NCBI GenBank assembly: GCA_001941065.1
Contig: MSHJ01000005.1
Coordinates: 248,001-312,000, forward strand
Length of the DNA stretch: 64,000 nucleotides
Direction: 5' to 3'
DNA from: Alistipes sp. Zagget8
GTDB taxonomy: Bacteria > Bacteroidota > Bacteroidia > Bacteroidales > Rikenellaceae
Shown: positions 6,916 to 38,235 of the stretch, one piece after another
How the letters are laid out: the number at the start of each line of letters is the position of its first letter
How positions within the stretch are numbered: position 1 is the first letter of the stretch
The notes under the pieces: generated by a model
Told to the model about the DNA's origin: nothing
Databases searched by the model: none
What the model saw: the letters and a program-made list of their open reading frames with translations, nothing else
Position numbers and translations under genes: made by a program

Positions 6916-6983
6916 ATCCGTACTATTTTAGCTTTCTTTTGTATGCATTTTTTTATCTCCCGGATGTCGGCCGTTTAATTTTG
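6916..6983 (+). promoter_or_regulatory. Candidate HTCS-controlled promoter of the GH89 gene: two half-sites 21 bp apart plus TAATTTTG -7 box
   Basis: ATCCGTACTATTTTAGC (6916) and TTTTGTATGCATTTTTT (6937); TAATTTTG at 6976-6983; same geometry as 22513-22580. Confidence 0.5.
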
Positions 6984-7016: not shown

Positions 7017-9554
7017 ATGAAAATCTACCGACCTGTTCTTTTGTTTCTTCTCGCCGTGACGATGCTGTCGTGCGGCGATGCTCCGCAAACACCCGAATCC
7101 TGCGCCCGGGAGGTGATCGAACGCACGCTCGGCCGCCGGGCTCCCGATGTCGAACTGCGCCTGACGGAGAAGGCGCCCGACGGACACGACCGCTTTGCGA
7201 CCCGTGTGACGGACGGACGCCTCGTGATCGAGGGCAGCAGCGGCGTGGCCCTGACGCGGGGATTCTACGATTATATTACGACCAACGGCTACGGGCAGGT
7301 GACATGGACGGGTACGCGCATGGAGCTGCCCGAACGGCTCCCCGATACGCCGCTGCGCGAGGTCAGCTCACCGTTCCGCCACCATTATTATATGAATGTC
7401 TGCACATTCGGCTATACCTATCCCTATTGGAGTTGGAACGAGTGGGAGAAGGAGCTCGACTGGATGGCGCTGCACGGCTTCGACATGGCGCTGGCGCCCA
7501 TCGGCAGTGAGGCCATTCTGATGCGCATATGGCGTGACATGGGCCTGACGGAGGAGGAGATCAACGAGCTTTTCACCGCCCCCGGACACCTGCCCTGGAT
7601 GCGCATGGGGAACATGAGCGGACTGGACTCCCCGCTTTCGGAGCGGTGGCTCGACGAACAGGTCGCCCTGCAGCACCGGATTCTCGACCGTATGCGCGGA
7701 CTGGGCATCACACCCGTGTTCAGCGGCTTCGCCGGCTTTGTGCCTCCGGCCATTGCCCGCGTGCGCCCCGGGGTCACGTTGACCGAGACCCGCTGGAACG
7801 ACCACATGAAGAGCTGGATGCTTCCGGTCGAATCACCCCTCTTTCGGGAGATTGCCGCCCGCTATATGGAGGAGTGGGAGCGGGAGTTCGGACGGGGTGA
7901 ATACTACCTCGTGGATTCGTTCAACGAGATGGAACTTCCCTTCGGAGAACTTTCGCCCGGGGAGGTTCATGCGCAGTTGACCCGTTATGGCGAGACTGTT
8001 TACAAAAGTATTGCCGCGGTCAATCCCGATGCCGTGTGGGTGCTGCAGGGATGGATGTTCGGCTACCAGCGCGACATCTGGACCCCGGACAACATCCGGG
8101 CCCTGCTGGCGGGCGTTCCCGACGACAAATTGCTGGTAGTCGATCTGGCCGAGGATTTCAACGCCATGGTGTGGCGCAATGCTCCCGGCTGGGAGTATGC
8201 CGACGGCTTCGCCGGCAAGCAGTGGATTTACAGCACCGTTCCCAATTTCGGCGGACGCTCGGCCCTCAGCGGCTCGTTGGAATTCTATGCGAACGGCCAT
8301 CTGGCCGCCCTGCAATCGGCCCGCAAAGGTAATCTCGTCGGTTACGGCACGGCGCCCGAAGGGGTGGAGAACAACGACGTGGTGTACGAAATGATCGCCG
8401 ATGCGGGTTGGTCCTCCGAACCGATCGACGTGGAGCAGTGGGTGCGCCGCTATGCCCGTAACCGCTACGGGGATTGTCCCGGGGAGCTCGGCCTTTTCTG
8501 GGACCATATCCTCCGCTCTTCTTATTCGGTCTCCGTTCCCAACCAGGCCCGCTACCGCTGGCAGATGACTCCTTACGACCAGCGGCGCGGTCCGGTCGAT
8601 ATTTCGGATGACTTTTTCCGGGCGGTGGAACACTTTGCGGCAGCCGGGCCGGAGCTGTCCGGCAGCGGGCTGTATCGCGCCGATCTGGCGCTCTATGCGG
8701 CCCTCTATGCTGCCGGCAAGGCGGACATCGCCGTCGAACGCGCCAACGCCGCCTATCTCGCGGGCGACCCGGAGGCCGCTGCTGCGGAACGCGATGCCTT
8801 TTTCTCGCTGCTTCTCACCGCCGACCGCTTGCTGGAATCGACGCCCAATCACCGGCTCGAACGGTGGCTCGGCTTTGCCGAAGCCCGGGGGCATAGCGCC
8901 GCGGAGAAGGAGCGCTACCAGCGCGATGCCCGGCGGCTTATTACCTGTTGGAGCGACGGCGCTTCGCTCCACGATTACGCCTGCCGGGTGTGGTCGGGGC
9001 TTATCCGTGACTACATCGTTCCCCGCTGGGAACACTATTTCGATTGCAAGGAGCGCGGCACGGCGCCCGATTTCGCAGGGCTCGACTCCGTATGGCTCGC
9101 CTCGGCCGCTGAACCGCTCTCGCCGCAGGAGCGCTGTCCCGATGTGCTGACGGCGGCCGAAGAGCTGTTTGCACGCTACGGTGCCTATGGGAGCGATTTT
9201 GTGCGTCCCGAATCGCGGGGAATCGTCGGTTCGTGGTCGCCGTTCGAATTCGGCGGTTCCCGGCGCCGCATCCGTCTGACGCTCGACCCCGCGACCGTGC
9301 CCGGCATCCGGGGCGTTCGTTTCCGCGTCCTGCGGGGCGGTGACGGCGTGCGGGTGGGGAATCCCGTCCTCCAAGTCGACCGGGTGAATATCGCTTCGAT
9401 GCAGTACGAAGCCGAGATGGGGCCCGTACATGCCGAAGCGGTCATCCCGATCCGGCATACGCAGCGCACCGTTCCGGCCGAAGCGGCGCTTTTCGTCACC
9501 CTCGACGGCCCTGCCGCCGCCGATTCGTTCGGGGTCATCGAACTGGTCCGCTGA
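7017..9554 (+). CDS. Alpha-N-acetylglucosaminidase (GH89, NAGLU-like)
   Basis: YPYWSWNEWEKELDWMALHGFDMALA, DSFNEMELPFG, GTAPEGVENNDVVYEMIADAGW motifs; lipoprotein-type N-terminus (MLSCGD). Confidence 0.92.
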   Translation: MKIYRPVLLFLLAVTMLSCGDAPQTPESCAREVIERTLGRRAPDVELRLTEKAPDGHDRFATRVTDGRLVIEGSSGVALTRGFYDYITTNGYGQVTWTGTRMELPERLPDTPLREVSSPFRHHYYMNVCTFGYTYPYWSWNEWEKELDWMALHGFDMALAPIGSEAILMRIWRDMGLTEEEINELFTAPGHLPWMRMGNMSGLDSPLSERWLDEQVALQHRILDRMRGLGITPVFSGFAGFVPPAIARVRPGVTLTETRWNDHMKSWMLPVESPLFREIAARYMEEWEREFGRGEYYLVDSFNEMELPFGELSPGEVHAQLTRYGETVYKSIAAVNPDAVWVLQGWMFGYQRDIWTPDNIRALLAGVPDDKLLVVDLAEDFNAMVWRNAPGWEYADGFAGKQWIYSTVPNFGGRSALSGSLEFYANGHLAALQSARKGNLVGYGTAPEGVENNDVVYEMIADAGWSSEPIDVEQWVRRYARNRYGDCPGELGLFWDHILRSSYSVSVPNQARYRWQMTPYDQRRGPVDISDDFFRAVEHFAAAGPELSGSGLYRADLALYAALYAAGKADIAVERANAAYLAGDPEAAAAERDAFFSLLLTADRLLESTPNHRLERWLGFAEARGHSAAEKERYQRDARRLITCWSDGASLHDYACRVWSGLIRDYIVPRWEHYFDCKERGTAPDFAGLDSVWLASAAEPLSPQERCPDVLTAAEELFARYGAYGSDFVRPESRGIVGSWSPFEFGGSRRRIRLTLDPATVPGIRGVRFRVLRGGDGVRVGNPVLQVDRVNIASMQYEAEMGPVHAEAVIPIRHTQRTVPAEAALFVTLDGPAAADSFGVIELVR

Positions 9555-9568
9555 CGCTCCCGAAAACC

Positions 9569-9636
9569 GTTCACACGATTTTTTTGTTTTTTTGTACTCG
9601 ATTTTCCTTCGGATATTAACGGATTGCCTAATTTTA
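9569..9636 (+). promoter_or_regulatory. Candidate HTCS-controlled promoter of the esterase-SusCD unit
   Basis: Proximal half-site TTTTGTACTCGATTTTC at 9590; TAATTTTA at 9629-9636 (39 bp downstream of half-site start); distal half-site weak. Confidence 0.45.
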
Positions 9637-9657: not shown

Positions 9658-10671
9658 ATGTATGACAAACTGAAATATCTTTTTCTGACCGTCCTTCTGG
9701 CGGCCTCCTGTTCCGGTAAGGATCAGGGCGAACCCGTCAACCCCCCCCCGCCCGGCATCGTGCCTAAGGACGGGGTGTTCGAGCAGCGCGGCGAAGGTTC
9801 GTTTGTCTATACGGGCTATGAGCCGTTGAAGGACAAACCGATCACGCTCTACTACTACATTCCCTCCGGCGGCGAGGTCGAACGGATGCCCGTGCTTTTT
9901 TCCATGCACGGCGCCGAGCGCGACGGCACCATCCAGCGCAACGCCTGGAAATATTTCGCCGAAAAGTACGGTTTCGTCGTCCTGGCACCGGAATACTCCA
10001 AGACTTATTATACGGAAAACGACTACCAGTTCGGGAGCGTCTGCCGTTCGTCCGGCTCCGACGTACTGAACGAGGAGTCGCAATGGACCTACCAGACCGT
10101 CGAGGCGCTTTTCGATTATTTCAAAAGCGAGACGGGCAACACCTCCGCAGCCTATTACCTCTTCGGCCATTCGGCCGGCGGGCAGTTCGTTCACCGCTTC
10201 CTGCTGGCCATGCCCGGAGCGCGTGTGGAACGTGCCGTGGCGGCCAATCCCGGGTCGTGGACCTTCCCCTGTGTCGAAGGCATCACGGGAACCGACGGAA
10301 AAACCTACGGCTGGCCCTATGCGGTCGCTGCGACGCCCTTTGCCGATGCCGCGCACCTCACGGCCTTTTTCGCCCGGAAAATGTATGTCCAGATAGGCAC
10401 CGCCGATACCGATGAGAACGACTCGTCGCTGCCCAAGGACGCTCCGTCGATGGCCCAGGGGCCGCATCGTTATGCCCGCGGGCGGAATTTCTTCGCAGCC
10501 TGCACGACGGTGGCGGGGGAGTCGGACATGCCGCTCCGTTTCGTCCTCTCCGAGGTCGAAGGCGTCGGCCACTCGACCCTGCGGATGGTTTACGGCAAAG
10601 CCTCCGTGACGAATCCCGCCGACACCGAGGCCCGCGGAAAAAACAGCGCATTCAATTTATTGTTCGAATAA
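9658..10671 (+). CDS. Alpha/beta-hydrolase lipoprotein (esterase / PHB-depolymerase-like)
   Basis: Lipobox LLAASC; FGHSAGGQFVHRFLLAMP nucleophile elbow; paralog of next CDS. Confidence 0.75.
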   Translation: MYDKLKYLFLTVLLAASCSGKDQGEPVNPPPPGIVPKDGVFEQRGEGSFVYTGYEPLKDKPITLYYYIPSGGEVERMPVLFSMHGAERDGTIQRNAWKYFAEKYGFVVLAPEYSKTYYTENDYQFGSVCRSSGSDVLNEESQWTYQTVEALFDYFKSETGNTSAAYYLFGHSAGGQFVHRFLLAMPGARVERAVAANPGSWTFPCVEGITGTDGKTYGWPYAVAATPFADAAHLTAFFARKMYVQIGTADTDENDSSLPKDAPSMAQGPHRYARGRNFFAACTTVAGESDMPLRFVLSEVEGVGHSTLRMVYGKASVTNPADTEARGKNSAFNLLFE

Positions 10672-10677
10672 ACTGCC

Positions 10678-11685
10678 ATGATAAAACGTACGATCCTTTC
10701 GATTTTCGCCGTGCTCTTCGTCTTTTCGGGCTCTTTCGCCCAAGACGACGGCAAGTTCCGGCGCGGCGGCGGGATGATGGTCTTCACGGGTTACGAACCG
10801 ATGAAGGAGCATCCCGTGAACCTCTATTACTACATCCCCACGCAGGGTAACATCAAGAAGATGCGGGTGCTCATCTCCATGCACGGCGCCGAGCGCAGCG
10901 GCCGCATCCAGCGCGGTGTCTGGCGCAATCTGGCCGAGGAGTACGGCTTCATCGTGCTGGCTCCCGAGTTCAAGCACGACAACGGCTATCTGGAAAACGG
11001 CTACCAGTTCGGCTGGGTCTCCGAGGACCCGAAGATTTTCCGCCTGAGACCGCGCGAGGTGTGGACCTACCAGCTTATCGAGGCTGTTTTCGACTATTTC
11101 AAGGAGAAGACCGGCAACGTGAGCGAAACTTACGATATGTTCGGCCATTCGGCCGGCGGACAGTTCGTTCACCGCTATCTGCTGGCCATGCCCGAGGCAC
11201 GCGTGAGACGTGCCGTGGCGGCCAATCCCGGCAACTACACCTATCCTGACGAGCGCGGGCTCTTCACCCCGTCGGGCGAACCTGCCGATCCTCCCGGCTG
11301 GCCCTATTCGGTGAAGGACACGCCCTTTGCTTCGGACGACTACCTCGCGCCCTTCTTCAAACGCGACCTGGTCATCCTGATCGGTACCGAGGATACCGAG
11401 CCCGTCAGCCCCGACATGGCCGAGAACAACCCCAACCGCATCCAGGGTCGTCACCGCTACGAGCGGGCCTGGAAATTCTTCAACGCCTCGCGCGACATCG
11501 CCCTTAAAAAAGGGCTGGAGTTCAACTGGACCATTCAGGAGGTGCCGGGTGCCGGGCACAACAGCGGCCAGATGGTCTACGGACAGGGGAGCGTGCGCAA
11601 CTGGCGCATCGAGAACGACGAGCGGGTCTACAACCTCAAGGATGTGACGGGCCGCGGGGCCTACAGCCTGATTTTCGAACGATAG
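10678..11685 (+). CDS. Alpha/beta-hydrolase (esterase-like), secreted paralog of 9658 CDS
   Basis: Signal peptide; MFGHSAGGQFVHRYLLAMP; colinear similarity to preceding ORF. Confidence 0.75.
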   Translation: MIKRTILSIFAVLFVFSGSFAQDDGKFRRGGGMMVFTGYEPMKEHPVNLYYYIPTQGNIKKMRVLISMHGAERSGRIQRGVWRNLAEEYGFIVLAPEFKHDNGYLENGYQFGWVSEDPKIFRLRPREVWTYQLIEAVFDYFKEKTGNVSETYDMFGHSAGGQFVHRYLLAMPEARVRRAVAANPGNYTYPDERGLFTPSGEPADPPGWPYSVKDTPFASDDYLAPFFKRDLVILIGTEDTEPVSPDMAENNPNRIQGRHRYERAWKFFNASRDIALKKGLEFNWTIQEVPGAGHNSGQMVYGQGSVRNWRIENDERVYNLKDVTGRGAYSLIFER

Positions 11686-11719
11686 ACCGAACCGAGAACA
11701 AAACTTAAAACCCGAACTT

Positions 11720-14700
11720 ATGAACTATTGTCCTACAAATGCGAATCGTCTGCGGTGTAGGGGTGTGGCGGTGTTCGCCGCACTCGTAACCCTGCTTGTT
11801 CCGGTCTTTGCGTCGGCGCAGGCCGCGCAGCAGAAGCAGCCGGCCGCGTCGAAGACGACCGTCAATGGGTATGTCTTCGACGAGAGCAACCAGCCGCTCT
11901 TCGGAGCCACTGTCACCGAGGAGGGGACCACGAACGCCGTGGCCGTCGACAAGAACGGTTCTTACCGGATTCAGGTGACGCCCCGCGAAGGTCTGAAGCT
12001 GACCTATCGTTTTCTCGGCATGGAGCCGCAGACGGTCGAGGTGGGGCGTCGGAGCACGATCGACGTGGTGCTGAAAAGCGACGCCGTGAAGATCAGCGAC
12101 GTGGTGGTGACCGGTTACGGCAACATCCTCCGGGAGGCCTATACGGGTTCGGCCTCGATACTTTCGTCCAACGACATCTCCCGGCGTGCCGCGGGGTCGT
12201 TCGAGAGCCTGCTCGGCGGACTCGTTCCCGGCCTGCTCTCATCGGGCTCCGGACAGCCCGGCGATGCGGCCGAATTGCGGCTGCGCGGTTTCGGGTCGAT
12301 CGGTTCCGGCGGGCAGCCCCTCTATGTCGTCGACGGGGTGGTCTTCGACCAGGACAACACCTCGGGACACAGCGGTGCGGTGTCGAGCCCCATGGCCACG
12401 CTCAATCCGGCCGACATCGCCAGCATCACCATCCTCAAGGACGCCGCTTCGGCATCGCTCTACGGTTCACAGGGCGCCAACGGCGTGATCGTCATCACCA
12501 CCAAGCAGGGTGTTCCCTCCGACCGCGTGCGCTATACGCTCTCGGTGCAGGCGGGTTTCTCGCGCATCTCCCCGGCCGTGCGGCCCGACCTTGTCGATTC
12601 GGAGCAGTACAAGGAGCTCTGGACCGAAGGCCAGTTCCACCGTCTGGTGCAGCAGGCCGGCGGGTCGTTCGTCGAGAATCTCAACGGGCTCTACAACAAC
12701 AAGCTCGGCTTCACGGTCGACGGCAAGAACTACTACCAGTGGTACAAGCAGGCGCAGCAGGATTTCAACAACTACTACGCCGTTCCCCGGCCTGACGGCT
12801 CCTACCACAACTACGATTTCTGGGGTGCCGACGCCGACAAACTCCCTTCGGTCGACTGGTATGACAAAATCCTGCGCAACGCTTCGTTCCAGCAGTATGA
12901 CCTTTCGCTTTCGGGCGGCAGTTCGACCCTGAAGTACTATATGTCCGTGGGCTATCTCAATCAGCAGGGCATCATCATCAACAGCGACTTGCAGCGCTAT
13001 TCGGCCCGTGTCAGCGTGAGTGCCGACGACCGTAAGAAGCGTATCAACTGGGGCGCTTCGGCCAACATCAGCCGCACCGAACAGTCGGGACCGCTCACCA
13101 GCGGTTCGAATTACAATATGCCCCATTACGCGGCGCTGCTGCTGCCGTCGGTCGTCCCGGCCTACCTCGAAGACGGCTCCTACAATTTCCGTTTCCCCAA
13201 CAACCTGCTCAACGGCAACCACAATCCCATTGCCAGCGCACGGGACAACATCCGCAAACGTCCGCAGTTCAACCTTTTCGCTTCGGCGTGGGTGCGGCTC
13301 AACATCACCGACTGGCTCGATTTCCGTTCGGACATCTCGCAGTATTACATCACCGGCCGGCGCTCCGACTATTTCGACCGGGATTTCGGTACGGGATACC
13401 TCGTGGGCGGCGAGCTGACCGACTACGATTCGAAGCGCCTGAAGACCACCAGCAAGAATATGCTCAATTTCAACTATACGCTCAACGGACGTCACCGCTT
13501 CAGTGCGACGGCGGGGTTGGAACTGGTGGATTTCCGCCAGGAGTGGAATTCCGTGACGGCGGTCAATTTCCTCAACGACCTGCGGCCGGTGCTTTCGTCC
13601 GCCGCCGAGATCTCGGGGTGGAGCGGCAGCGGCTACGACTATTCGCAGGTCTCGATCGTCACCCGTGCCGACTATTCCTACCGCTACCGCTATTTCATCG
13701 GGGGCTCGTTCCGTCAGGACCGCTCTTCGCGCTTCTCGCCCGAACACCGCACGGGTAATTTCTGGTCCGTGTCGGCGGCCTACCGCATTACCAACGAAAA
13801 CTGGGCGTGGCTGAATCCCGTGAAGCGGATATTCAACAACATCAAGTTCAAGGCGAGCTACGGCTACAACGGCAACCTGCCGTCGAATTATTACAACTGG
13901 CGGACGCTTTACAGCGGTTCGGGGCGTTATGACTCCGGGCACGCCCTTTCGCAGACGTTCCGTGCGACTTACGACCTGAGCTGGGAGAAGAACAACGTGC
14001 TCAACGTGGGCGTCGACCTGGGGATGTTCAAAGACCGCATCCGCATCTCGGCCGAGTACTACTCGCGCAAATCCACCGACCTGCTGCAGGAGGTTCCCGT
14101 GTCGCAGGTGTCGGGATACAGCACGATGCTGATGAACACCTCGGCGGGCATCCGCAACCGGGGCTTCGAGCTGGACCTCGACGCCCGCATCCTCAACAAG
14201 CTCTTCAAGTGGAATTTCAAGCTCAACATGGCCACCCTGAGCGCCAAATATTTCGGTCTGGAGCAGGACATCATCGGCTCCAACGCCCAGATCATGCGCA
14301 ACGGACAGAGCGTCGGGGCATGGTACCTGAACAAGTTCGCGGGCATCGACTCCAACACCGGACAGGTGCTCTACTACGGCGTGGACGAATACGGCAACGA
14401 CATCATCTCCAACAGCGACAACCCCTCGTTCCGCCGCATCGTTGGCAAGGGTGTTCCGACCGTGTCGGGCGGTTTCAACACGCTGTTCAGCTACCGCGGC
14501 TGGGACCTCTCGGCGTTGTTCACCTATGCGTGGGGACACGACGTTTACGATTCGCGGGCCGCGGGCCGCACGGGTATCGACGGGCAGTCGATGGACTACA
14601 ACATTGACGTGCGGCAGCTCGACCGCTGGACTCCGGACAACCGTTACGCCTCCAACCGCATCCGCATCAACGGCCAGACCTCGTCGGGCAGCTCCACGCG

Positions 14701-14941
14701 CTATCTCTATAAGGGCGATTACCTCAAGATGAAGAACGTCCGCCTGCAGTACACTTTCCCGGCCAGCACCTTCCGCAAGCTGCGCATGACGGGCTTCACG
14801 CTCTTCGTGCAGGCCGAGAACCTCTGGGTGTGGACCGAGGCGCAGGGATACGATCCCGACCTGCAGATCGACGGTTACATCGCGGCTGCTAAATACCCTT
14901 CGGCCATGACTTTCACGGCCGGTCTCAATTTCAACTTTTAA
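11720..14941 (+). CDS. SusC/RagA family TonB-linked outer membrane protein
   Basis: CarboxypepD_reg-like domain (TTVNGYVFDESNQPLFGATV), plug DVVVTGYGN, LKDAASASLYGSQGANGVIVITTK, C-terminal beta-barrel. Confidence 0.95.
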   Translation: MNYCPTNANRLRCRGVAVFAALVTLLVPVFASAQAAQQKQPAASKTTVNGYVFDESNQPLFGATVTEEGTTNAVAVDKNGSYRIQVTPREGLKLTYRFLGMEPQTVEVGRRSTIDVVLKSDAVKISDVVVTGYGNILREAYTGSASILSSNDISRRAAGSFESLLGGLVPGLLSSGSGQPGDAAELRLRGFGSIGSGGQPLYVVDGVVFDQDNTSGHSGAVSSPMATLNPADIASITILKDAASASLYGSQGANGVIVITTKQGVPSDRVRYTLSVQAGFSRISPAVRPDLVDSEQYKELWTEGQFHRLVQQAGGSFVENLNGLYNNKLGFTVDGKNYYQWYKQAQQDFNNYYAVPRPDGSYHNYDFWGADADKLPSVDWYDKILRNASFQQYDLSLSGGSSTLKYYMSVGYLNQQGIIINSDLQRYSARVSVSADDRKKRINWGASANISRTEQSGPLTSGSNYNMPHYAALLLPSVVPAYLEDGSYNFRFPNNLLNGNHNPIASARDNIRKRPQFNLFASAWVRLNITDWLDFRSDISQYYITGRRSDYFDRDFGTGYLVGGELTDYDSKRLKTTSKNMLNFNYTLNGRHRFSATAGLELVDFRQEWNSVTAVNFLNDLRPVLSSAAEISGWSGSGYDYSQVSIVTRADYSYRYRYFIGGSFRQDRSSRFSPEHRTGNFWSVSAAYRITNENWAWLNPVKRIFNNIKFKASYGYNGNLPSNYYNWRTLYSGSGRYDSGHALSQTFRATYDLSWEKNNVLNVGVDLGMFKDRIRISAEYYSRKSTDLLQEVPVSQVSGYSTMLMNTSAGIRNRGFELDLDARILNKLFKWNFKLNMATLSAKYFGLEQDIIGSNAQIMRNGQSVGAWYLNKFAGIDSNTGQVLYYGVDEYGNDIISNSDNPSFRRIVGKGVPTVSGGFNTLFSYRGWDLSALFTYAWGHDVYDSRAAGRTGIDGQSMDYNIDVRQLDRWTPDNRYASNRIRINGQTSSGSSTRYLYKGDYLKMKNVRLQYTFPASTFRKLRMTGFTLFVQAENLWVWTEAQGYDPDLQIDGYIAAAKYPSAMTFTAGLNFNF

Positions 14942-14953
14942 CCGAACAGCACC

Positions 14954-16543
14954 ATGAAAAAGATACGGATCTATTTGGCTGCGCTTCTCCTGCTTCCGGG
15001 ATTATCCTCTTGCGGGGATTTCCTCGACAAGGAGTCCTATACCGATCAGGACAAGGAGATTCTGAAAACCCCCGAAGGCATCGAGGCGCTGCTCAACGGT
15101 GTTTACGACATCTTCCAGCATGCGAACTACTACGGACGCAACCTGATGGCTTACGAGGCTGCCAAGGGCAACGATTTCTTCGTGCGCGTGTCGAGCGGCA
15201 ACAGCTTCGAGCGCGAGAACCGCTATGCCGAGTCGACCGCCTCGTCGGGAGCCGCCTCGGGGCTGTGGCTCAAGATTTACGGCGGCATCCGAACCGCCAC
15301 CGATGTCATCGAAGCCATCGACGGCGTGCAGGGCATGGGCGAGGACGACCTGCACCGGGTCGAGGGCGAAGCCCGCGCACTGCGCGGACTGGCCTATTTC
15401 GATCTGATGCGGCTGTTCGCCTATCCGCCGCGTTTCTCCTTCCCCGACGGTGAGGAGTATAATATCGGCGCTACACCCGGGGCCTATGCGTGGGGCGTGC
15501 CTATTCTCGAAGGTATGGATATGGCCAATAACATCTTCGACTACGAGGTGCGCCGCGATTCGGCGGTGACGGTATACGGTTACATCGAAGGTGAACTGCT
15601 CGAAGCCAAACGACTGCTGACCGGCACGGCCTCGCGTCAGGGACATGTCAACTATGTGGCCGTCTGCGGCCTGCTGGCGCGTCTGTATCTCTATATGGAG
15701 CGTTGGGACGATGTCGTCGAGCAGGGCGAGGAGGCGTTGAGGGCTGCTGCCGGGACCTACCGGATGATTCCTTACGACACCTACAAGACCTCCTATTACA
15801 AGCCGTTTAACTCGGAGAACATCTGGGAGCTTGTCTACAGCCTTTCGGACAACAACGGCGGCAACAGCCTCAACTACCTCGTCCGCAAGCCCACCTATGA
15901 AAATCCGGGTGCCGAGAACGACGGACAGGTGTCGCAGGCCATCGGCTATGCCGCCTACGGGCTGTTTCCGGCCACGGTTTCCCTGCTGCAGTCCGATCCC
16001 GACGACGTGCGGGGCTATCTGGTCTGCGACCTGGGCATCGCCAACAAGGATTACAAAGGCTACCGCAAATATGTAGGCGAGACCTACCACTATGTCTACA
16101 ACCAGCCCGTCATCCGCCTGCCGGAGATCTACCTGACGCTGGCCGAGGCTTATCTGTGCAAGGAGGGTGGTTCGGTCGCCCTGGCCGAACCCTATTACAA
16201 CTACGTGCGCGAGGCGCGTGTGAACACGACGGGATTCGAATCCTCCACCGTTTCGGGGGCTCTCGCCGAAGTGCTCACCGAACGGCGCCGGGAGCTGATG
16301 CTCGAAGGGCACAACTACTGGGACTATTTCCGCCGCGGCGAAACGATGAAGCGTCCCGAACTGCTTGAAAATGCCAACAAGATAACCATCGCCTTCGGCT
16401 ACGGTTCGGGCAAGAGCCAGGCGCGTATGCAGGTCGTCTATCCGATTCCGCTGTCGGAGCTGGAGGCCAACAAGGCCATCCGCGACCAGCAGAACCCGGG
16501 TTACGAAACCTATGACGAGGTATACCAGACCAATAACGAATAA
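14954..16543 (+). CDS. RagB/SusD family nutrient-binding lipoprotein
   Basis: LSSCGDFLDKESYTD N-terminus; C-terminal RRRELMLEGHNYWDYFRRGE and YPIPLSELEANK. Confidence 0.95.
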   Translation: MKKIRIYLAALLLLPGLSSCGDFLDKESYTDQDKEILKTPEGIEALLNGVYDIFQHANYYGRNLMAYEAAKGNDFFVRVSSGNSFERENRYAESTASSGAASGLWLKIYGGIRTATDVIEAIDGVQGMGEDDLHRVEGEARALRGLAYFDLMRLFAYPPRFSFPDGEEYNIGATPGAYAWGVPILEGMDMANNIFDYEVRRDSAVTVYGYIEGELLEAKRLLTGTASRQGHVNYVAVCGLLARLYLYMERWDDVVEQGEEALRAAAGTYRMIPYDTYKTSYYKPFNSENIWELVYSLSDNNGGNSLNYLVRKPTYENPGAENDGQVSQAIGYAAYGLFPATVSLLQSDPDDVRGYLVCDLGIANKDYKGYRKYVGETYHYVYNQPVIRLPEIYLTLAEAYLCKEGGSVALAEPYYNYVREARVNTTGFESSTVSGALAEVLTERRRELMLEGHNYWDYFRRGETMKRPELLENANKITIAFGYGSGKSQARMQVVYPIPLSELEANKAIRDQQNPGYETYDEVYQTNNE

Positions 16544-16574
16544 ACGAAAATAGAACAATCTAAAACCGAGAACT

Positions 16575-18335
16575 ATGAAAAAGTATCTGTATCGGACGCT
16601 GATCGTACTGTGCTTCGCGCTGGTCGGCTTCTCGTGTGAAAAAGAGGAGTCGAACGAGGAGGTGATGCTCGACGATGTGACGCTGAATTTCGCTCCGGCC
16701 AAGAAATCGGTCCAGGTCGATCTGCCGCTCGACCGGGTCAGCAACTATTGGCATATTTATGCTCCGTCGGAGGATTCGTGGCTCCAATACGAGGTGATCC
16801 CGGGCCGCAAGTCGATGTATGTGGTCGTGGACGGCAACCTCACCGACGATGTGCGCTCCTCCTACATCATGGTGCGCAGCGGACGCCAGACGCAGCGTAT
16901 TCAGGTCGCTCAGGATACCGAGGGCGGCATTTCGCTCTCGTCGGACTACCTTCCGGTGCGTTATCTGGGCGCTTCGTCGTCGCTCACGATCCTCAACACC
17001 GAGTTCCTGACCGACCTGTCGGTTTCGGTCGAGGATACCGAGACGGAGTGGTGCTCCGCGCTGATCGACGGCGACCGGCTCTTCGTCAATACCCGCTTCA
17101 ACGACCGCACGGAGGCTCGCAGCGCCCTGCTGACCGTCACGGGCAAGCGGGCCATTACGGGAGAGACGCGCACGGCCTTCGTCACCGTCTATCAGGGCAA
17201 GGGCGGCATGACGCCCTACGTTTTCGAGATTCCCGATTTCAGCGAGTCGCAGGTCTATAAGGTGATGGACGGCCAGAAACAGGTGGCACAGATCACCCGG
17301 GAGTTCCTGCGTGCGAAAGGCAAGATCAACGCGCAGGCCGTGGTGGTCTACCCGGTGGAGAACGACGAGGTCGACCTCTCGATGGGCTATGTGGCGCAGA
17401 TCGTGCTTGCGAACTCCGATCTGGACGATGCGACCTATACCTATGCTGCCCCGACGGGTGCCGTGCACGGCGGAAGCGTATCGTTCAATATGGCCGACAA
17501 TACGCTGTCGGGCTATATCGCCGGGACGCTGGCCGAGCCTGTGACGAAGATTTATATGCCCGGCGACGTGGGGATGGGGCCCGAGGAGGTCGTGGGCAGC
17601 CAGGAAGCCACCGTGGTTCCGCACGTCATTACCGATGTCCGCAACGCCGAAACCAACGTTTATCCTATCGTGAAGATCGGCACGCAGTACTGGATGGGCC
17701 GGCACCTCAATACGGTCTACTACAACAAGAACAAGAATTTCGAGACCATCCCGACCAATGTGACGACCAATGAAGCGGACCGCCGGAAACCGAACTACTG
17801 CATTTACAGTTACAACAACGGTGCGAGCACGGAATCCGCAGCCGTGACGAACCGCGAGCGCTTCGGGCTGCTTTATCCTTACCTGACTATCGGCGGCTTC
17901 GAGACCGTTGCGGAAGCCGGATTGAGCAATGCGGAAGATCTTATTGCGGACAATCTTTCGCCCGAAGGCTGGATCGTGCCGACCAAGGACGAGGCCAACT
18001 CTCTGAAAGCCTACCTCGGAGGAAACGGCTGCATGGGGCGTCTCCGCCGTTTCGTCGACTACGACGCCGAAGGTCAGCCGCAGGTGTTCCCGACGGCCGG
18101 AAGGCCGGACGACAACATCTCCGGGTTCAATGCTCCCAGAAGCGGTTACAGAAGCCATTCCGGGGCCTGGACCTCCGGAGCGGAGAACGGTTGCTGGATG
18201 TGGACGCGCACTTTCCAGAATGCGACGAATTCTTCCATGTTCCATGTGAGCGATGTGCAGACGTCGCAGAACTCCGCTCGTGCCATGTCCATCCGCAGCC
18301 TCAACGACGGCGGTATCAGGATCAAGGCGCAGTAA
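16575..18335 (+). CDS. BACON-like lipoprotein with C-terminal FISUMP-like domain (candidate surface glycan-binding protein)
   Basis: Lipobox GFSCEKEE; BACON-like repeats; YPIVKIGTQYWMGRHLNTVYYNKNK ... GIRIKAQ; position directly after SusD. Confidence 0.6.
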   Translation: MKKYLYRTLIVLCFALVGFSCEKEESNEEVMLDDVTLNFAPAKKSVQVDLPLDRVSNYWHIYAPSEDSWLQYEVIPGRKSMYVVVDGNLTDDVRSSYIMVRSGRQTQRIQVAQDTEGGISLSSDYLPVRYLGASSSLTILNTEFLTDLSVSVEDTETEWCSALIDGDRLFVNTRFNDRTEARSALLTVTGKRAITGETRTAFVTVYQGKGGMTPYVFEIPDFSESQVYKVMDGQKQVAQITREFLRAKGKINAQAVVVYPVENDEVDLSMGYVAQIVLANSDLDDATYTYAAPTGAVHGGSVSFNMADNTLSGYIAGTLAEPVTKIYMPGDVGMGPEEVVGSQEATVVPHVITDVRNAETNVYPIVKIGTQYWMGRHLNTVYYNKNKNFETIPTNVTTNEADRRKPNYCIYSYNNGASTESAAVTNRERFGLLYPYLTIGGFETVAEAGLSNAEDLIADNLSPEGWIVPTKDEANSLKAYLGGNGCMGRLRRFVDYDAEGQPQVFPTAGRPDDNISGFNAPRSGYRSHSGAWTSGAENGCWMWTRTFQNATNSSMFHVSDVQTSQNSARAMSIRSLNDGGIRIKAQ

Positions 18336-18363
18336 TCCTTCGTAAAGAGGAATGCCGGAGCCG

Positions 18364-18400
18364 AGCTTTCATGGTCCGACGGGCCATGAAAGCTTTTTTT
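18364..18400 (+). terminator. Rho-independent terminator after PUL SusCD unit
   Basis: AGCTTTCATGGTCC-GAC-GGGCCATGAAAGCT stem followed by T-run. Confidence 0.9.
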
Positions 18401-18412
18401 CGAAAAAAAGAT

Positions 18413-18420
18413 TAAATTTG
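18413..18420 (+). promoter_or_regulatory. -7 box (TAAATTTG) upstream of HTCS gene
   Basis: Matches TAnnTTTG 24 nt before ATG; no clear -33 TTTG. Confidence 0.4.
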
Positions 18421-18443
18421 TTTTCGGATACAGCGAATTGCCC

Positions 18444-21400
18444 ATGGGACGCAGAATCATCCTTCAACTCCTGCTGCTGTTTGCGGCGGCCACGGCCGTT
18501 GCGGCCCGCACCCCGGACCGCGTCATATCGCGGCGGTATGTGATGGAGAACGGGCTCTCGTCGAACCGGGTCTACAGCATCGTGCAGGATTCGCTGGGCT
18601 TCATCTGGTTCGGGACCAACGACGGGCTCAACCGCTTCGACGGGCTCGATTTCCGAAAATACTACTATACCGGTGAGGACGACGGCGGGATGTCGAGCAA
18701 CAGCGTCCGCTGGCTGCTGATAAGCCGTGACAACCGTATGTGGATCGCGCTGGACGACGGAGTCGACGTCTACGATTCCCAGACGGGCGCCTTCAGCCAT
18801 TTCGACGCCCGGACGGAAACGGGCGAGGCCATCAACGGCCGGGTGCTGCGCATTGCCGAGGATGCCGACGGCGAGTTGTGGATCGGGACCATGACCGACG
18901 GACTCTACCGTTATACGCCCTCCGCCGACCGGCTGCAGGTCTACCGGCACGACCCGGCCGATGCATCGTCCATCTCCCAGAATTCGGTCGCTTCGCTCTT
19001 CGTCGACAGCGAGGGGATTGTCTGGGTGGGGACTTACGATCAGGGGCTCTGTGCCTTTTCGAAAGAGACCGGACGCTTCACCACCTACCGGAAACAGCCC
19101 GGCGGACTGTCGGACAACCAGGTGCACAGCATCTATGAAGATGCGGTCGGCTATCTCTGGATCGGAACCTACTCTTCCGGTATCGACTGTTTCGACCGCC
19201 GGACCGGCCGCTTCGTCAACTACCGCGACGAGCGCCCCGGCAGCCCGCTCCACCACATCCACGACATCGTTGCCTACGGTCCCGGCGAGATTCTCGTCGC
19301 CTCGGACAACGGGGTCGGCATCTTCCATATCGAGGAGGGGGTGATCCGTCCGGGCGACAAACACAATCCGCGCGTGCTTCCCGTTGCGAATAAACTGGTC
19401 TACAAGGCCTACAAGGACCGCGAGGGCGGCCTGTGGCTGGGCTCCTATTTCTATGGCGTGGAGTATTTTCCGCCGATGCAGCACAATTTCCGCTTTTACG
19501 GCTGCGACGACGGTTCTTCCTCGGACAAGGGACGGGTTATCAAGGCCGTGAGCGAGGGTGAAAAGGGAATCCTCTGGGTGGGCACCGACAACGACGGCAT
19601 CTATACCGTCAATACGCTGACCGACGAGGTGAAGCCTTTCCGCACGGCAGCGGACATCGGGCTGACCCAATATATCGTCTCGGACCTGCTGTACGACGAC
19701 GACCGCCTCTTCACCGCCACCTATGAACGGGGGCTCGAGGTCTTCGACCTGCGGACCGGCCGCGTGAGGAGCTATTTCCATGACCCGGACGACGAACATT
19801 CGCTGCCCTCTTCGCGCGTCTTCATCCTCTTCAAGAGCGCCACGGGACGCATCTATTTGGGGACGGCCAACGGTCTGTGCCGCTATGACCGTGAGCGGGA
19901 CCGCTTCGTTCGGCTGGGTATTCCCGTGCGTATCGCGGCCATTGCCGAGGACGGCGACCACAACCTCTGGGTGGCCACCAAGGAGAACGGACTCTACCAC
20001 TACGACATTCGGACAGGCGCCTGCCGCCATTACCTCGCCGACCCGGACGATCCCTGCTCGCTGGTGCGCAACGTGCTGACGGTACTGGCCGTCGACCGTG
20101 ACGGACGGCTGTGGATCGGTTCCGACGGTTACGGTGTCTGCCGTTACGACGCTGCGACGGACGCTTTTGTCCGCTACGACGATCTGCCGCTTCCCAACCG
20201 CATCATTTCGGGCATCGTTCCCGACGGCGAGACGCTCTGGATCGCGACCAACAAGGGGCTCGTGCGCTGGAACACGGCTACGAATGCGACGCGGCTTTTC
20301 TCCCGCTCGGACGGGCTCTACAACGAGCAGTTCACCGAACTCGCCTGCATGGTCGATTACAGCGGCCTTTTTGTGCTGGGCACCACCGACGGCATCTGCA
20401 CCTTCTCGCCCCACCGGCTCACGGACGATAGCCGCACGGTTCCGCCGGTGGTCCTCACGTCGCTCTCCATCTACAACCGTCCCGTCACGCCCCGCAGCGA
20501 AGCCTCGCCGCTGGTGCGATCCATCGAGACGACAAGGGAGGTCGTGCTGGCCCACAACCAGCGGATGCTCAGCGTCGAGTTCGCGTCTCTGAGTTATGTC
20601 AATCCGGCCGAGATGCTCTACCGCTACAAACTGGAGGGCTTCGACGACAAATGGTACGTCACCGACGGCCGTAACCGCATCGTCAACTACAACAACCTCC
20701 CGGCCAAACGCTATACGCTGCGTATCGAGAGTGCCGACAACAATGGGGTATGGGGCAGCGGACAGACCGTGCTCGACATCGTCGTCCGTCCGCACGCCCT
20801 CAGGTCGCCCCTGGCGTTCACGCTTTATGCGCTTGTTCTGCTGCTGGCGCTGACCGCCCTGATCCGCTACCTGCTCCGGCGTTCGGACCGGAAGCACGGC
20901 GAGAGACTCCGGCAATTCGAAATGAAGACCCAGCAGGAGGTCTACGACGCCAAGATCAATTTCTTTACCCATATTACGCACGAGATCCGGACGCCGCTGA
21001 GCCTCATTATCGGGCCGTTGGAGTACATCCGCAAGTCGCGGCCGATGAATGACAAATACGGCGAGTACCTCGATATCATCGAGATGAACTATAAACGCCT
21101 CTATGCGCTGGTGACGCAGTTGCTCGACTTTCGCAAGGTCGATTCGGGCAACTACCGCCTCAGCTATGCTCCCTGCGGTGTGGCGGAACTCGTCGACGGG
21201 ATCGTGGCGCTGTTCGGTCCGACGGCCCGGCAGCGGGGCATCCGGCTGCATGTGACAGTCGAACCGCAGGATTTGGTGCTGGTCACCGACCGGGAGGCGC
21301 TGACCAAAATCCTCAGTAATCTCCTCTCCAACGCCATCAAGCACGCCTCCGGGCATATTTCGCTCACCGTCCGGCAGTGCGGGGAGCGGGTGACGCTCGT

Positions 21401-22505
21401 CGTCGGGGACGACGGTCCGGGCGTCGCTCCTGCCGAGCGCGAGAAGATATTCCGGCCCTTCTATCAGGTCGCCTCCGACCGTTCGGGGGCAAAGGGCAGC
21501 GGCATCGGGCTGCACATGACCCGGCAGTTGGTCGAGCTGCTCGGGGGAACCATCTCCGTCTCCGACCGGGACGGCGGGCTTTCGGGCGCCTCCTTCCGGG
21601 TGGAACTGCCCGTGCGCGAGGTGTCGGCGGCCGACACCGGGACGGAGAGCCGGCTCCATGAGTTTATCATCGACGATTTCGCGTCGGAGAACCCTGCCGA
21701 CACCGATCCGGAGCCTGTCGAGGAAGACGGGGCCCCGGTGCGGCGATATACCGTCATGCTGGTCGACGACAATGCCGAAATACTGGATTTCCTCACCCGG
21801 GTACTGAGTGAACGCTATTTCTGCATCGCCGTGGCGAGCGGTGAGGAGGCGCTGCTCATGCTGGCCAAGAACCGGGTCGATCTGGTGATAAGCGACGTGA
21901 TGATGGACGGGATGGACGGCCTCGAACTGTGCCGCCGCATCAAGACCGACATCGACACTTCGCACATCCCGGTGGTGCTGCTGACGGCCAAGACTAACCT
22001 CGAAACCAAGATTCAGGGGCTGGAGTACGGCGCCGACGCCTACATCGAGAAACCCTTCTCCATCACCCACCTCAATGCGCAGCTCACAAACCTCATCGCA
22101 GGCCGCAATCGGCTTCGCGAGGCCTTTGCCTCCACACCCCAGCCCGCGACGCGCATCGAGGCCTACAACCGGCTGGATCAGGAGTTCGTCGACCGCTGTA
22201 CGGCCATCATCACGGAGAATATCACCGTGCCGGATTTCTCCATCGAGATGCTGGCTCAGGAGATGGGGATGAGCCGCACCTCGGTGTTCGTCAAGTTGAA
22301 AGCCATTACCGGAACGACCCCCAACGATTTCATCAAACTCATCCGCCTGAAGGTGGCCTGCAAGCTGATGGCCGAGGGCCATTACCGAGCAACGGAGGTG
22401 GGCTTTCTGGTGGGGTTCAATTCGTCGTCCTATTTCGCCAAATGCTTCTTCAAGCAGTTCGGGATGCGGCCCAACGACTACATCAAGAGCCTCGAACGGC
22501 AGTAG
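18444..22505 (+). CDS. Hybrid two-component system regulator (HTCS: beta-propeller/Y_Y_Y sensor, HisKA, HATPase, REC, AraC-type HTH)
   Basis: Repeated LWIGT propeller motifs, Y_Y_Y region, FFTHITHEIRTPLSLIIGPLE H-box, KGSGIGLHMTRQLVELLGG, MLVDDNAEILDFL receiver, C-terminal AraC HTH (VGFNSSSYFAKCFFKQFGMRPNDY). Confidence 0.97.
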   Translation: MGRRIILQLLLLFAAATAVAARTPDRVISRRYVMENGLSSNRVYSIVQDSLGFIWFGTNDGLNRFDGLDFRKYYYTGEDDGGMSSNSVRWLLISRDNRMWIALDDGVDVYDSQTGAFSHFDARTETGEAINGRVLRIAEDADGELWIGTMTDGLYRYTPSADRLQVYRHDPADASSISQNSVASLFVDSEGIVWVGTYDQGLCAFSKETGRFTTYRKQPGGLSDNQVHSIYEDAVGYLWIGTYSSGIDCFDRRTGRFVNYRDERPGSPLHHIHDIVAYGPGEILVASDNGVGIFHIEEGVIRPGDKHNPRVLPVANKLVYKAYKDREGGLWLGSYFYGVEYFPPMQHNFRFYGCDDGSSSDKGRVIKAVSEGEKGILWVGTDNDGIYTVNTLTDEVKPFRTAADIGLTQYIVSDLLYDDDRLFTATYERGLEVFDLRTGRVRSYFHDPDDEHSLPSSRVFILFKSATGRIYLGTANGLCRYDRERDRFVRLGIPVRIAAIAEDGDHNLWVATKENGLYHYDIRTGACRHYLADPDDPCSLVRNVLTVLAVDRDGRLWIGSDGYGVCRYDAATDAFVRYDDLPLPNRIISGIVPDGETLWIATNKGLVRWNTATNATRLFSRSDGLYNEQFTELACMVDYSGLFVLGTTDGICTFSPHRLTDDSRTVPPVVLTSLSIYNRPVTPRSEASPLVRSIETTREVVLAHNQRMLSVEFASLSYVNPAEMLYRYKLEGFDDKWYVTDGRNRIVNYNNLPAKRYTLRIESADNNGVWGSGQTVLDIVVRPHALRSPLAFTLYALVLLLALTALIRYLLRRSDRKHGERLRQFEMKTQQEVYDAKINFFTHITHEIRTPLSLIIGPLEYIRKSRPMNDKYGEYLDIIEMNYKRLYALVTQLLDFRKVDSGNYRLSYAPCGVAELVDGIVALFGPTARQRGIRLHVTVEPQDLVLVTDREALTKILSNLLSNAIKHASGHISLTVRQCGERVTLVVGDDGPGVAPAEREKIFRPFYQVASDRSGAKGSGIGLHMTRQLVELLGGTISVSDRDGGLSGASFRVELPVREVSAADTGTESRLHEFIIDDFASENPADTDPEPVEEDGAPVRRYTVMLVDDNAEILDFLTRVLSERYFCIAVASGEEALLMLAKNRVDLVISDVMMDGMDGLELCRRIKTDIDTSHIPVVLLTAKTNLETKIQGLEYGADAYIEKPFSITHLNAQLTNLIAGRNRLREAFASTPQPATRIEAYNRLDQEFVDRCTAIITENITVPDFSIEMLAQEMGMSRTSVFVKLKAITGTTPNDFIKLIRLKVACKLMAEGHYRATEVGFLVGFNSSSYFAKCFFKQFGMRPNDYIKSLERQ

Positions 22506-22512
22506 GAGCCGT

Positions 22513-22580
22513 TTCTGTACGCGATTGTCATGATTCTGTACGTCATTATCCGGCCGAAAACGCCGCAGGGGTTAATTTTG
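22513..22580 (+). promoter_or_regulatory. Candidate HTCS operator: 21-bp-period direct repeat plus TAATTTTG -7 box
   Basis: TTCTGTACGcgATTgTC at 22513 and TTCTGTACGtcATTaTC at 22534; TAATTTTG at 22573-22580. Confidence 0.65.
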
Positions 22581-22606
22581 GACATATTTCCAGATAAATC
22601 CCTGCT

Positions 22607-24604
22607 ATGAAAAAAACGCTTTTCTTCCTGTTTTCCGCCTTTGCCGCCTGTGCGTTTCCCGCCTCGGCCCGGCAGCATCTGTCGCTCGCCGATCCCGCCG
22701 GCAGGATGAAGCTCGACCTCTATGTCGGGACGTCGGGGATCGAGTATGCGCTGACGCACGACGGGACGACGGTAATCGACCGTTCGCCTGTTTCGCTGAC
22801 CCTGGCCGGAGGCACGGTGTGGGGCGCCGATCCGAAGATCGAACGCGTCGTCCGCCGGTCGGTGGATACGGTGATTTTCCCGCCCGTCTACCGGAAAGAC
22901 CGCATCCGGGATCGTTTCAACGAACTCACCGTCGATTTCGAGGGTGGTTACGGAATGGTTTTTCGCGCCTATGAAGACGGTGTGGCCTACCGTTTCGTCG
23001 CCCGCGGCGGCAGTCCCTTCGTCGTGGAGAGCGAGCAGGCGTCGTTCAACATTCCCGGCGATCCCTGCGCCTATGCCGCCTATCCCAAGGGGCGGATGAA
23101 CAATGGCGCTCCGGACCCTTTTTACAGCTCGTTCCAGAATACCTATACCCATCGTCCGCTCTCGGAGTGGAACGACGGCTCTATCGCCATGCTGCCCCTG
23201 TTGGTCGAGAGCGCCGGGGGCCGGAAGCTCTGCATCACCGAGGCCGACCTCATCGACTATCCGGGCATGTATCTCCGCAACGATGCGGGGAATGTCCTGC
23301 GCGGGGTGCATGCCGCCTATCCGAAGGAGCTCCGGCGGCAGACGCGCGGGTTGAAATGTGTCGTGCAGAGCCGCGAACCCTACATTGCACGCATGGACGG
23401 CCGTTCGCCGCTGCCGTGGCGCGTGATCGTAGTCTCGGAGAACGATGCGCAGCTGCTCGACAACGACATGGTCTACAAACTGGCCACGCCCGCTTCGGGG
23501 AGCGACTATTCGTGGGTCCGGCCCGGCAAGGTGGCCTGGGAGTGGTGGAACAACTGGAACCTGCGCGGCGTCGATTTCGAGACGGGTGTGAACGACGACA
23601 CGTATAAATATTACATTGATTTCGCGGCGGCGAAAGGCATCGAATACGTGATCCTGGACGAAGGCTGGGCCGTGGAGGGTGAGGCGGATCTCTTTCGCGT
23701 GGTTCCGGAGATCGACCTGCCGGGGCTGGTGAACTACGCCGCCGAACGCGGCGTGGGAATCATTCTCTGGGCGGGTTATTACGCCTTCGACCGGGATATG
23801 GAGAACGTCTGCCGCCACTATGCCGCCATGGGCGTCAAGGGTTTCAAGATCGATTTCATGGATCGCGACGACCAGTATATGATCCATTTCAACTACCGCG
23901 CCGCACAGATGGGCGAGAAATACAGGCTGCTCATCGACCTCCACGGCACCTCGAAACCCACGGGGTTGCAGCGCACCTTCCCCGGGACGGTCAATTTCGA
24001 GGGGGTTCACGGCCTCGAAGAGATGAAATGGGCCAAAGAGGGGACCGATCAGGTGACCTACGACGTCACATTCCCCTTTATCCGCATGGTCGCGGGGCCG
24101 GTGGACTACACGCAGGGGGCCATGCGCAACGCCACGAAAGAGAATTTCCGGACCGTCTACACCGAGCCGATGAGCCAGGGCACGCGCTGCCGCCAGATGG
24201 CCCAGTACGTGATCTTCGAATCGCCGCTCAATATGCTGTGCGATACGCCGAGCAACTACCTCCGCGAGCAGGAGTGCACCGATTTCATCGCCGCCGTGCC
24301 GACCTGCTGGGACGAAACCCGCCCGTTGGCAGGCGAAGTGGGGCACTGCGTGGCTGTTGCCCGCCGCCGGGGTGCGGTGTGGTATGTCGGTGCGATGACC
24401 GGCTGGGAGCCGCGCGAGATGGAGTTCGACCTCTCGTTTCTGGGTGCGGGCGATTTCCGGGCCGAGATTTTCCGTGACGGGGTCAATGCCGGCAAGGCGG
24501 CGCAGGATTACCGGCGCGAGGTGCTGCCGGTGCCTGCGGATCGGAAACTGCGTGTGAAGATGGCTCCCGGGGGCGGAACCGTGATGAAGATCGGAAAAAA
24601 ATGA
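22607..24604 (+). CDS. Glycoside hydrolase family 97 protein
   Basis: GH97 core WEWWNNWNL...YVILDEGWA...GVKGFKIDFMDRDDQ...DLHGTSKPTGLQRTFPG...NFEGVHGLEE; Asp in FKIDFMD suggests the retaining subgroup (inference). Confidence 0.95.
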   Translation: MKKTLFFLFSAFAACAFPASARQHLSLADPAGRMKLDLYVGTSGIEYALTHDGTTVIDRSPVSLTLAGGTVWGADPKIERVVRRSVDTVIFPPVYRKDRIRDRFNELTVDFEGGYGMVFRAYEDGVAYRFVARGGSPFVVESEQASFNIPGDPCAYAAYPKGRMNNGAPDPFYSSFQNTYTHRPLSEWNDGSIAMLPLLVESAGGRKLCITEADLIDYPGMYLRNDAGNVLRGVHAAYPKELRRQTRGLKCVVQSREPYIARMDGRSPLPWRVIVVSENDAQLLDNDMVYKLATPASGSDYSWVRPGKVAWEWWNNWNLRGVDFETGVNDDTYKYYIDFAAAKGIEYVILDEGWAVEGEADLFRVVPEIDLPGLVNYAAERGVGIILWAGYYAFDRDMENVCRHYAAMGVKGFKIDFMDRDDQYMIHFNYRAAQMGEKYRLLIDLHGTSKPTGLQRTFPGTVNFEGVHGLEEMKWAKEGTDQVTYDVTFPFIRMVAGPVDYTQGAMRNATKENFRTVYTEPMSQGTRCRQMAQYVIFESPLNMLCDTPSNYLREQECTDFIAAVPTCWDETRPLAGEVGHCVAVARRRGAVWYVGAMTGWEPREMEFDLSFLGAGDFRAEIFRDGVNAGKAAQDYRREVLPVPADRKLRVKMAPGGGTVMKIGKK

Positions 24605-24635
24605 TTATTATTGTAGAACTAAATCGCTCGGAACA

Positions 24636-25715
24636 ATGAAAAGATCGATTACCGTGCTCTTCCTGCTGTTCGTCGCAGCGGCCGGGGCGCAGGAGAAGAA
24701 GGAGGTGAGCAACAATACGCTCGCCGTGCGCATCGCAGACCAGGAACACGATTTCGACGTGGTGGTCAAGAAACTCGAGGATGTGCTGTGGTACGACAAG
24801 ATGGACGACGTGGCCTATGTCGACAAGGTCCGCCTGACCGGTCCGCCGCGTTTCCGGCAAATCCCCACGGGCAACGCCTTCCACGATGCCCTGCTGGACA
24901 ACGACCTCGTTTTCCACGCCTATGTCTTCATCCCCAAAAAGGCGAAGCAGAACAAGAAATATCCGCTGGTGGTCTTCTCCCACGGCGGCATCCACGGCAC
25001 CTTCTCCACGGTCTATGCGCACGTTATCCGTGAACTTGTGGCCCAGGGGTATCTCGTCGTGGCGCCCGACTACCGCGGCAGCACGGGCTACGGCAAGGGT
25101 TTCTACCGGAGCATCGACTACGGGGGATTGGAGAATGAGGATGTGCTGGCGGCCGCCCGCTATATGGTGGAGAATTACCGCATGGTCGATTCCCGGCGGG
25201 TGGGGCTGCTGGGATGGAGCCACGGCGGGATGATTACGCTGATGAACGCCTGCAAATATCCCGAGGTCTATGCCTGCGGTTATGCAGGGGTCCCGGTCTC
25301 CGACGTGACCTACCGTCTCGAATACCAGAAGCCGGGCTATACCGATAATTTCACGGCTTCGTACCACATCGGCAAAACCCCGCAGGAGGCTCCCGAAGAG
25401 TATGCCCGCCGTTCGCCGGTGAACTATGCCAAAGACCTGCGGATTCCGCTGATGATCACCACTGCGGAGAACGACGACGACGTGAGCGTCCGCGAGGTAC
25501 GGCGCATGATCGATTCGCTGAATTTCTACAAGAAGGATTTCGAATACAAGGTCTATCCGCCGATGCCCGGGGCGCACCTGTTCGACCGCATCGACACCCG
25601 CGAGGCGACCGACATCCGTTATAAAGCCTATGAGTTCCTCGCCCGTTACCTGACGCCTCCCAGACCTTTCCGTTCGCCGGACGAACTGCGCAAGGCGGGG
25701 TATCGGTTCAATTAG
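24636..25715 (+). CDS. Alpha/beta-hydrolase, prolyl oligopeptidase (S9)-like
   Basis: DYRGSTGYGKGFYRSIDYGG, nucleophile elbow GLLGWSHGGMITL, C-terminal HLFDR. Confidence 0.85.
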   Translation: MKRSITVLFLLFVAAAGAQEKKEVSNNTLAVRIADQEHDFDVVVKKLEDVLWYDKMDDVAYVDKVRLTGPPRFRQIPTGNAFHDALLDNDLVFHAYVFIPKKAKQNKKYPLVVFSHGGIHGTFSTVYAHVIRELVAQGYLVVAPDYRGSTGYGKGFYRSIDYGGLENEDVLAAARYMVENYRMVDSRRVGLLGWSHGGMITLMNACKYPEVYACGYAGVPVSDVTYRLEYQKPGYTDNFTASYHIGKTPQEAPEEYARRSPVNYAKDLRIPLMITTAENDDDVSVREVRRMIDSLNFYKKDFEYKVYPPMPGAHLFDRIDTREATDIRYKAYEFLARYLTPPRPFRSPDELRKAGYRFN

Positions 25716-38223: not shown

Positions 38224-38235
38224 GGGAATCTGTTT

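Follow-up and report, generated by a model that had tools for sequence, protein, structure and literature searches.

Hybrid two-component system (HTCS) regulators are a main route from glycan sensing to gene expression in gut Bacteroidales, and many of them are without a known DNA site. According to the main text of a study of Bacteroides thetaiotaomicron, 20 of its 36 HTCSs had no known DNA site in 2013, and 16 HTCS motifs were predicted as direct repeats with an average period of 21 bp, including HTCS_Man with 16-bp sites and a 5-bp spacer; dimers on one face of the DNA were proposed, and similar DNA-binding domains (DBDs) went with similar motifs (Ravcheev 2013, PMC3878776). The promoters of the HTCSs BT0366, BT4124 and BT4663 have been tested by EMSA, in which an HTCS response-regulator fragment bound to promoters that carry predicted sites (PMC5061871, PMC11253607). 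In addition, an S/CHIP motif is present in the receivers of most HTCSs, and the SHIP motif has been linked to autoinhibition of the DBD (PMC11253607).

Here we followed up a prediction made for a stretch of 64,000 nt from Alistipes sp. Zagget8 (the window; coordinates refer to its + strand unless marked), in which a direct repeat in front of a GH97 gene had been read as an operator of the neighbouring HTCS and as part of a regulon of three PUL promoters.

Results

The PUL and its regulator

The protein encoded at 18438-22505 carries the complete order of HTCS domains (Reg_prop, Y_Y_Y, HisKA, HATPase_c, Response_reg and HTH_18), has one hydrophobic segment near residues 787-809 and retains an intact SHIP regulatory motif in its receiver, and its best solved relatives are an HTCS sensor and a hybrid two-component REC-DBD (4a2l, 12aw). 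Its gene adjoins those of SusC, SusD, GH89 and GH97, and the listed start is a TTG, with an ATG in the in-frame region just downstream. The full domain set thus upholds the identity originally proposed, and we assign the predicted protein to the HTCS regulators. The features of the locus are collected in Table 1.

Table 1. Predicted features of the PUL in the window.
Feature	Position	Strand	Remarks
HTCS half-site 1, GH89 promoter (ATCCGTACTATTTTAGC), predicted	6916..6932	+	14/17 identity to orthologous site in L059
HTCS half-site 2, GH89 promoter (TTTTGTATGCATTTTTT), predicted	6937..6953	+	11/17 identity to L059
-7 box TAATTTTG, GH89 promoter	6976..6983	+	+60/+39 from half-sites; box conserved in L059 at 5233
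GH89 alpha-N-acetylglucosaminidase gene, first target unit	7017..9554	+	Pfam NAGLU domains; 79% identity to L059 copy
HTCS half-site 1, esterase-SusCD promoter (GTTCACACGATTTTTTT), weak, predicted	9569..9585	+	L059 counterpart GGTTGTACTATTTTATC matches better
HTCS half-site 2, esterase-SusCD promoter (TTTTGTACTCGATTTTC), predicted	9590..9606	+	14/17 identity to L059
-7 box TAATTTTA, esterase-SusCD promoter	9629..9636	+	+60/+39 from half-sites
Esterase-SusCD operon, second target unit	9658..18335	+	Two esterase-like genes, SusC, SusD, lipoprotein
SusC gene, second target unit	11720-14941	+	
SusD gene, second target unit	14954-16543	+	
Lipoprotein gene, second target unit	16575-18335	+	Fib_succ_major domain
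Intrinsic terminator between SusCD unit and HTCS gene	18363..18395	+	MFE -27.8 kcal/mol, z -4.1; strong
-7 box TAAATTTG, HTCS promoter	18413..18420	+	Operator upstream absent
HTCS gene	18438..22505	+	Reg_prop/Y_Y_Y sensor, HisKA, HATPase_c, receiver with SHIP motif, AraC-type HTH_18
HTCS half-site 1, GH97 promoter (TTCTGTACGCGATTGTC), predicted	22513..22529	+	
HTCS half-site 2, GH97 promoter (TTCTGTACGTCATTATC), predicted	22534..22550	+	
-7 box TAATTTTG, GH97 promoter	22573..22580	+	+60/+39 from half-sites
Third target unit	22607..25715	+	GH97 (22607-24604) and S9-family hydrolase (24636-25715)

Elsewhere in the window, two adjoining paralogous DUF4953 met-zincin/DUF5117/DUF5118 proteins of 845 and 872 aa are encoded at 28407-33562 (-), with SusD-like and TonB-dependent receptor genes near this pair on the minus strand (36652-41717). 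A short 6-bp tandem repeat (TTCCGG) lies at 27475-27534, and an 18-bp tandem repeat (CGTAGCCGTAACCGTACC) at 53345-53407 within the coding region of a Wzz/AAA protein (53271-55730).

Predicted operator sites at three promoters

A 17-bp half-site with a consensus of about TTYYGTACNNNWTTNTC occurs as a direct repeat with a period of 21 bp in three PUL promoters, those of GH89, of the esterase-SusC-SusD operon and of GH97, in each case 60 and 39 bp upstream of a TAATTTT(G/A) box. We thereby recovered from the sequence the 14/17 match of the two GH97 half-sites and the common 60/39-bp geometry described earlier. Repeat identity within the other two promoters is weak (7/17 for GH89 and 8/17 for the esterase copy), so that only the GH97 copy is visible by eye, and half-site 1 of the esterase promoter departs from the core, with CACA instead of GTAC. 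Half-site 2 covers positions -39 to -23 counted from the start of the -7 box and thus overlaps the -33/-35 region, where, as had been claimed, none of the three promoters has a TTTG. As such, the three predicted promoters fit the AraC-type class II layout, in which the proximal half-site lies over -33/-35 and this element is missing. The motif is absent from the HTCS gene's own promoter, which follows the terminator, again in agreement with the original prediction.

Statistical support and genome-wide scans

In a held-out test, a PWM trained only on the remaining window promoters and those of an orthologous PUL (L059, see below) was scanned over both strands of the window (128,000 positions), and gave 25.3 bits for the GH97 site, 24.9 for GH89 and 24.7 for the esterase operon. 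Each held-out site ranked directly after the training sites and far above all other positions: the next non-training positions scored 10.5-15.0 bits, those at 13.7-15 being register-shifted copies of the same sites, and positions outside the sites reached 10.5-12.8 bits, the held-out sites scoring about twice the best unrelated position. By PWM the window holds exactly three such sites, all within the PUL that includes the HTCS gene, in support of the proposed three-promoter regulon. A self-match of 14/17 at offset 21 is found at 2 of 63,963 window positions.

The genome-wide scans were pattern-based. With at most 3 mismatches, the strict pattern matched the GH97 site only, and the loose core with the -7 box gave 14 matches, compared with 5 for a reversed-pattern control; the motif is hence not frequent in the genome. 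After rescoring, the three window sites reached 32+ bits, the promoter of a paralogous HTCS (C11) 27.6 and one match on C12 20.1, while the matches C9:78586, C9:76384, C3, C13, C16 and C11:294741 were rejected as being at or near background (3.5-13.5 bits). Genome-wide, the motif thus appears to be confined to the predicted regulon.

Conservation in an orthologous PUL

The orthologue comparison is based on one closely matching PUL, L059, which a contig scan placed in an uncultured Bacteroidales MAG and which is syntenic with that of the window (GH89 79% identical, esterases 72 and 79%, SusC 81%, SusD 84%, lipoprotein 74%, HTCS 67% and S9 78%). GH97 is missing there together with the third site, and S9 directly follows the HTCS gene. 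Both sites that this gene order permits are kept, at a register of 59-60 bp: in the GH89 promoter TTCCGTATTATTTTCGC and ATTTGTACACGGTTTTC precede TAATTTTG by 59 and 38 bp, and in the esterase promoter GGTTGTACTATTTTATC and TTTCGTACTATATTTTC precede a poor -7 box, TATCTTGC, by 60 and 39 bp. Between the window and L059 the half-sites agree at 14, 11, 10 and 14 of 17 positions, the spacers at 9/26 (esterase promoter) and, by alignment, 4-10/25 (GH89 promoter), and the register is stable despite a changed distance from the upstream gene. The spacers have thus diverged, and conservation is focused on the half-sites and their register. In the stretches examined of L060 and L061, which carry more distant SusC relatives, neither an HTCS nor a good site was found, so these two loci carry no information on conservation.

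The layouts suggest a different wiring of the regulator itself. In L059 the HTCS gene starts 5 bp past the lipoprotein stop and S9 about 11 bp past the HTCS gene, so that both are probably co-transcribed with the operator-controlled SusCD unit and the HTCS would drive its own expression by positive feedback. The window PUL differs: the terminator and the motif-free promoter would uncouple the HTCS from operator control, and GH97 with the third operator lies between HTCS and S9 in the gene order. This difference between orthologous PULs implies that positive autoregulation was lost or gained, and GH97 and its operator (window 22506-24604), both missing from L059, were gained or lost jointly. 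The differing stretches are 18336-18445 in the window and 16590-16600 and 20744-20758 in L059.

Related regulators

The HTH domains nearest to that of the window HTCS are those of L059 (83% identical), G023 (62%), G026 (60%) and the own-genome paralogue C11 (55%). Scanned with the window/L059 PWM, the loci of the three latter contain matches with TAnnTTTG at +60/61, and all three have a site immediately in front of the HTCS gene, which suggests autoregulation. Site scores in the loci of these relatives were 26.4 bits (L040), 18.3 and 15.7 (L041), 17.3 (L039) and 16.0 (L042). L053, from the same genome (HTH 40%), has two sites of 20.5 and 17.0 bits with the -7 box at +60/61. The more distant L053 HTCS (27-35% identical) has similar GTAC-motif sites on both flanks, at 6861(-) and 10981(+), with -7 boxes at +60.

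Generality of the fixed register

In a motif-free scan, self-similarity upstream of ORF-preceding TAnnTTTG boxes was scored for all periods of 14-28 and all placements. The highest-scoring cell was period 21 near -60 in HTCS loci of the own genome (z 6.8, offset -62), of the genus (161 boxes, z 7.3, -60) and of the order (263 boxes, z 5.4, -60), and own loci without this motif family gave z 5.3 at -62, compared with z 2.2-2.8 for the best other period, all z values being nominal since neighbouring cells are correlated. Against a shuffle that retains positional base composition the period-21 signal persisted, with z 9.4 in the genus and z 7.8 in the order. At period 21, 27% of the SusC promoters in HTCS loci score 9/17 or better, and at other periods 6% do. 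A TTTG at -33 is present in 2.4% of 82 repeat-bearing promoters versus 10.9% of 230 without a repeat, which fits promoters that depend on an activator.

Control regions of the same genome, picked regardless of HTCSs, gave a weaker period-21 effect, so the signal is not exclusive to HTCS loci; some of the control boxes precede carbohydrate genes, and part of the signal may hence come from other AraC-type regulators or from distant targets of HTCSs. We slightly favour the view that Bacteroidales share a grammar of HTCS promoters, with half-sites of any sequence 21 bp apart at 60/39 before TAnnTTTG and no -33 box. If so, a single genome would be enough to read off the operator of an HTCS that has not been characterised. 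In regions not selected for HTCSs, 21-bp direct repeats in the same register were seen in L185 at about 10377 (-), ahead of the gene for a 472-aa protein whose N-terminus is signal-like, in L171 at about 2569 (-), before an aldo-keto-reductase-like gene, and in L174 at about 18510 (-), before a SusC homologue.

Discussion

The three repeats are very probably operators of the HTCS encoded at 18438-22505, acting as a dimeric AraC-type activator. From the observed motif, geometry, conservation, regulon size and domain set we infer a course of events in which sensing of an oligosaccharide would lead the HTCS to autophosphorylate and to pass the phosphate to its receiver domain, which would free the AraC-type DBD. 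Two DBDs might then bind side by side, one to each 17-bp half-site, two helical turns apart and thus on the same face of the helix, with the proximal half-site over the region of the sigma factor's -33 contact. Given this position, the bound HTCS could replace the missing TTTG and recruit polymerase to the -7 box that would set the transcription start, so that GH89, the esterase-SusCD operon and GH97-S9 would be switched on together.

Alternatively, the sites might be bound mainly by the paralogous C11 HTCS (46% identical), or shared with it, joining two PULs in one cross-regulated network: the window/L059 PWM gives 27.6 bits for C11:315821, upstream of the paralogue gene, and the HTH domains of the two proteins share 55% identity and an almost identical second recognition helix. 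The C11 HTCS probably recognises a very similar site, so that the window HTCS may not be the sole binder; this qualifies the original prediction, whose operator and regulon reading is supported. Nevertheless, we consider it unlikely that C11 is the main or a joint binder, as the three best sites of the genome all surround the window HTCS gene, L059 with its orthologous HTCS retains the sites, and the own PUL is the normal target of HTCS-class regulators.

Readings without a dedicated regulator fare worse. Helically phased A/T tracts, as a generic property of Bacteroidales promoters, might create 21-bp self-similarity with no operator involved, and in unselected own-genome regions a weaker signal of period 21 is indeed seen between -60 and -74 (with column-shuffled partners, z is 5.0 at most), their promoters reaching 9.1% at period 21 versus 5.2% at other periods. 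However, the conserved letters include G and C in an ordered GTAC core common to promoters and species, for which A/T phasing is insufficient, SusC promoters show a much stronger effect (26.7% versus 5.6%), and some of the control matches precede carbohydrate genes. Since the signal survives a shuffle that preserves column composition, A/T phasing as the sole cause is ruled out, with the weaker control-region signal partly unexplained, and we regard the absence of any regulator operator as very improbable. Chance resemblance or a degenerate duplication, such as a scar of GH97 insertion, would suit the low repeat identity within two of the three promoters (7/17 and 8/17), but is contradicted by the held-out scores across promoters and species and by the constant register, and is hardly credible.

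With the window HTCS as the preferred binder, the locus provides an uncharacterised PUL, one that includes GH89, an alpha-GlcNAc-cleaving enzyme family, with a specific, conserved and testable predicted operator and with a regulon of three units.

The geometry has a counterpart in Escherichia coli, where AraC occupies araI1-araI2 at araBAD as two 17-bp half-sites in direct orientation with a 4-bp gap, that is, a 21-bp period, the proximal half-site touching the -35 region; the activation geometry predicted for the window sites is of the same class. The E. coli protein is a cytoplasmic one-component regulator working with sigma-70, whereas the regulator predicted here is a membrane hybrid kinase at a Bacteroidota promoter with a -7 TAnnTTTG.

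Among HTCSs, the operators in the main text of Ravcheev 2013 (PMC3878776) and those of the window are alike in being direct repeats with a period of about 21 bp that precede PUL operons close to the HTCS gene; that system concerns another organism and regulator. The predicted operator is thus of a known type. For BT0366, BT4124 and BT4663 binding is experimental, whereas here it is predicted, and the sensor specificities differ; the S/CHIP receiver motif of most HTCSs is also present in the window HTCS. The main text of Ravcheev 2013 states no fixed distance to the -7 box, and in the main texts searched we found no statement of the distance of HTCS sites to it, so that priority is uncertain. 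A constant distance would permit site prediction from a single genome and suggests that the HTCS substitutes for the -33 contact. What our motif-free scan adds to the known systems is the fixed register, with the period-21 repeat placed about 60 bp ahead of TAnnTTTG.
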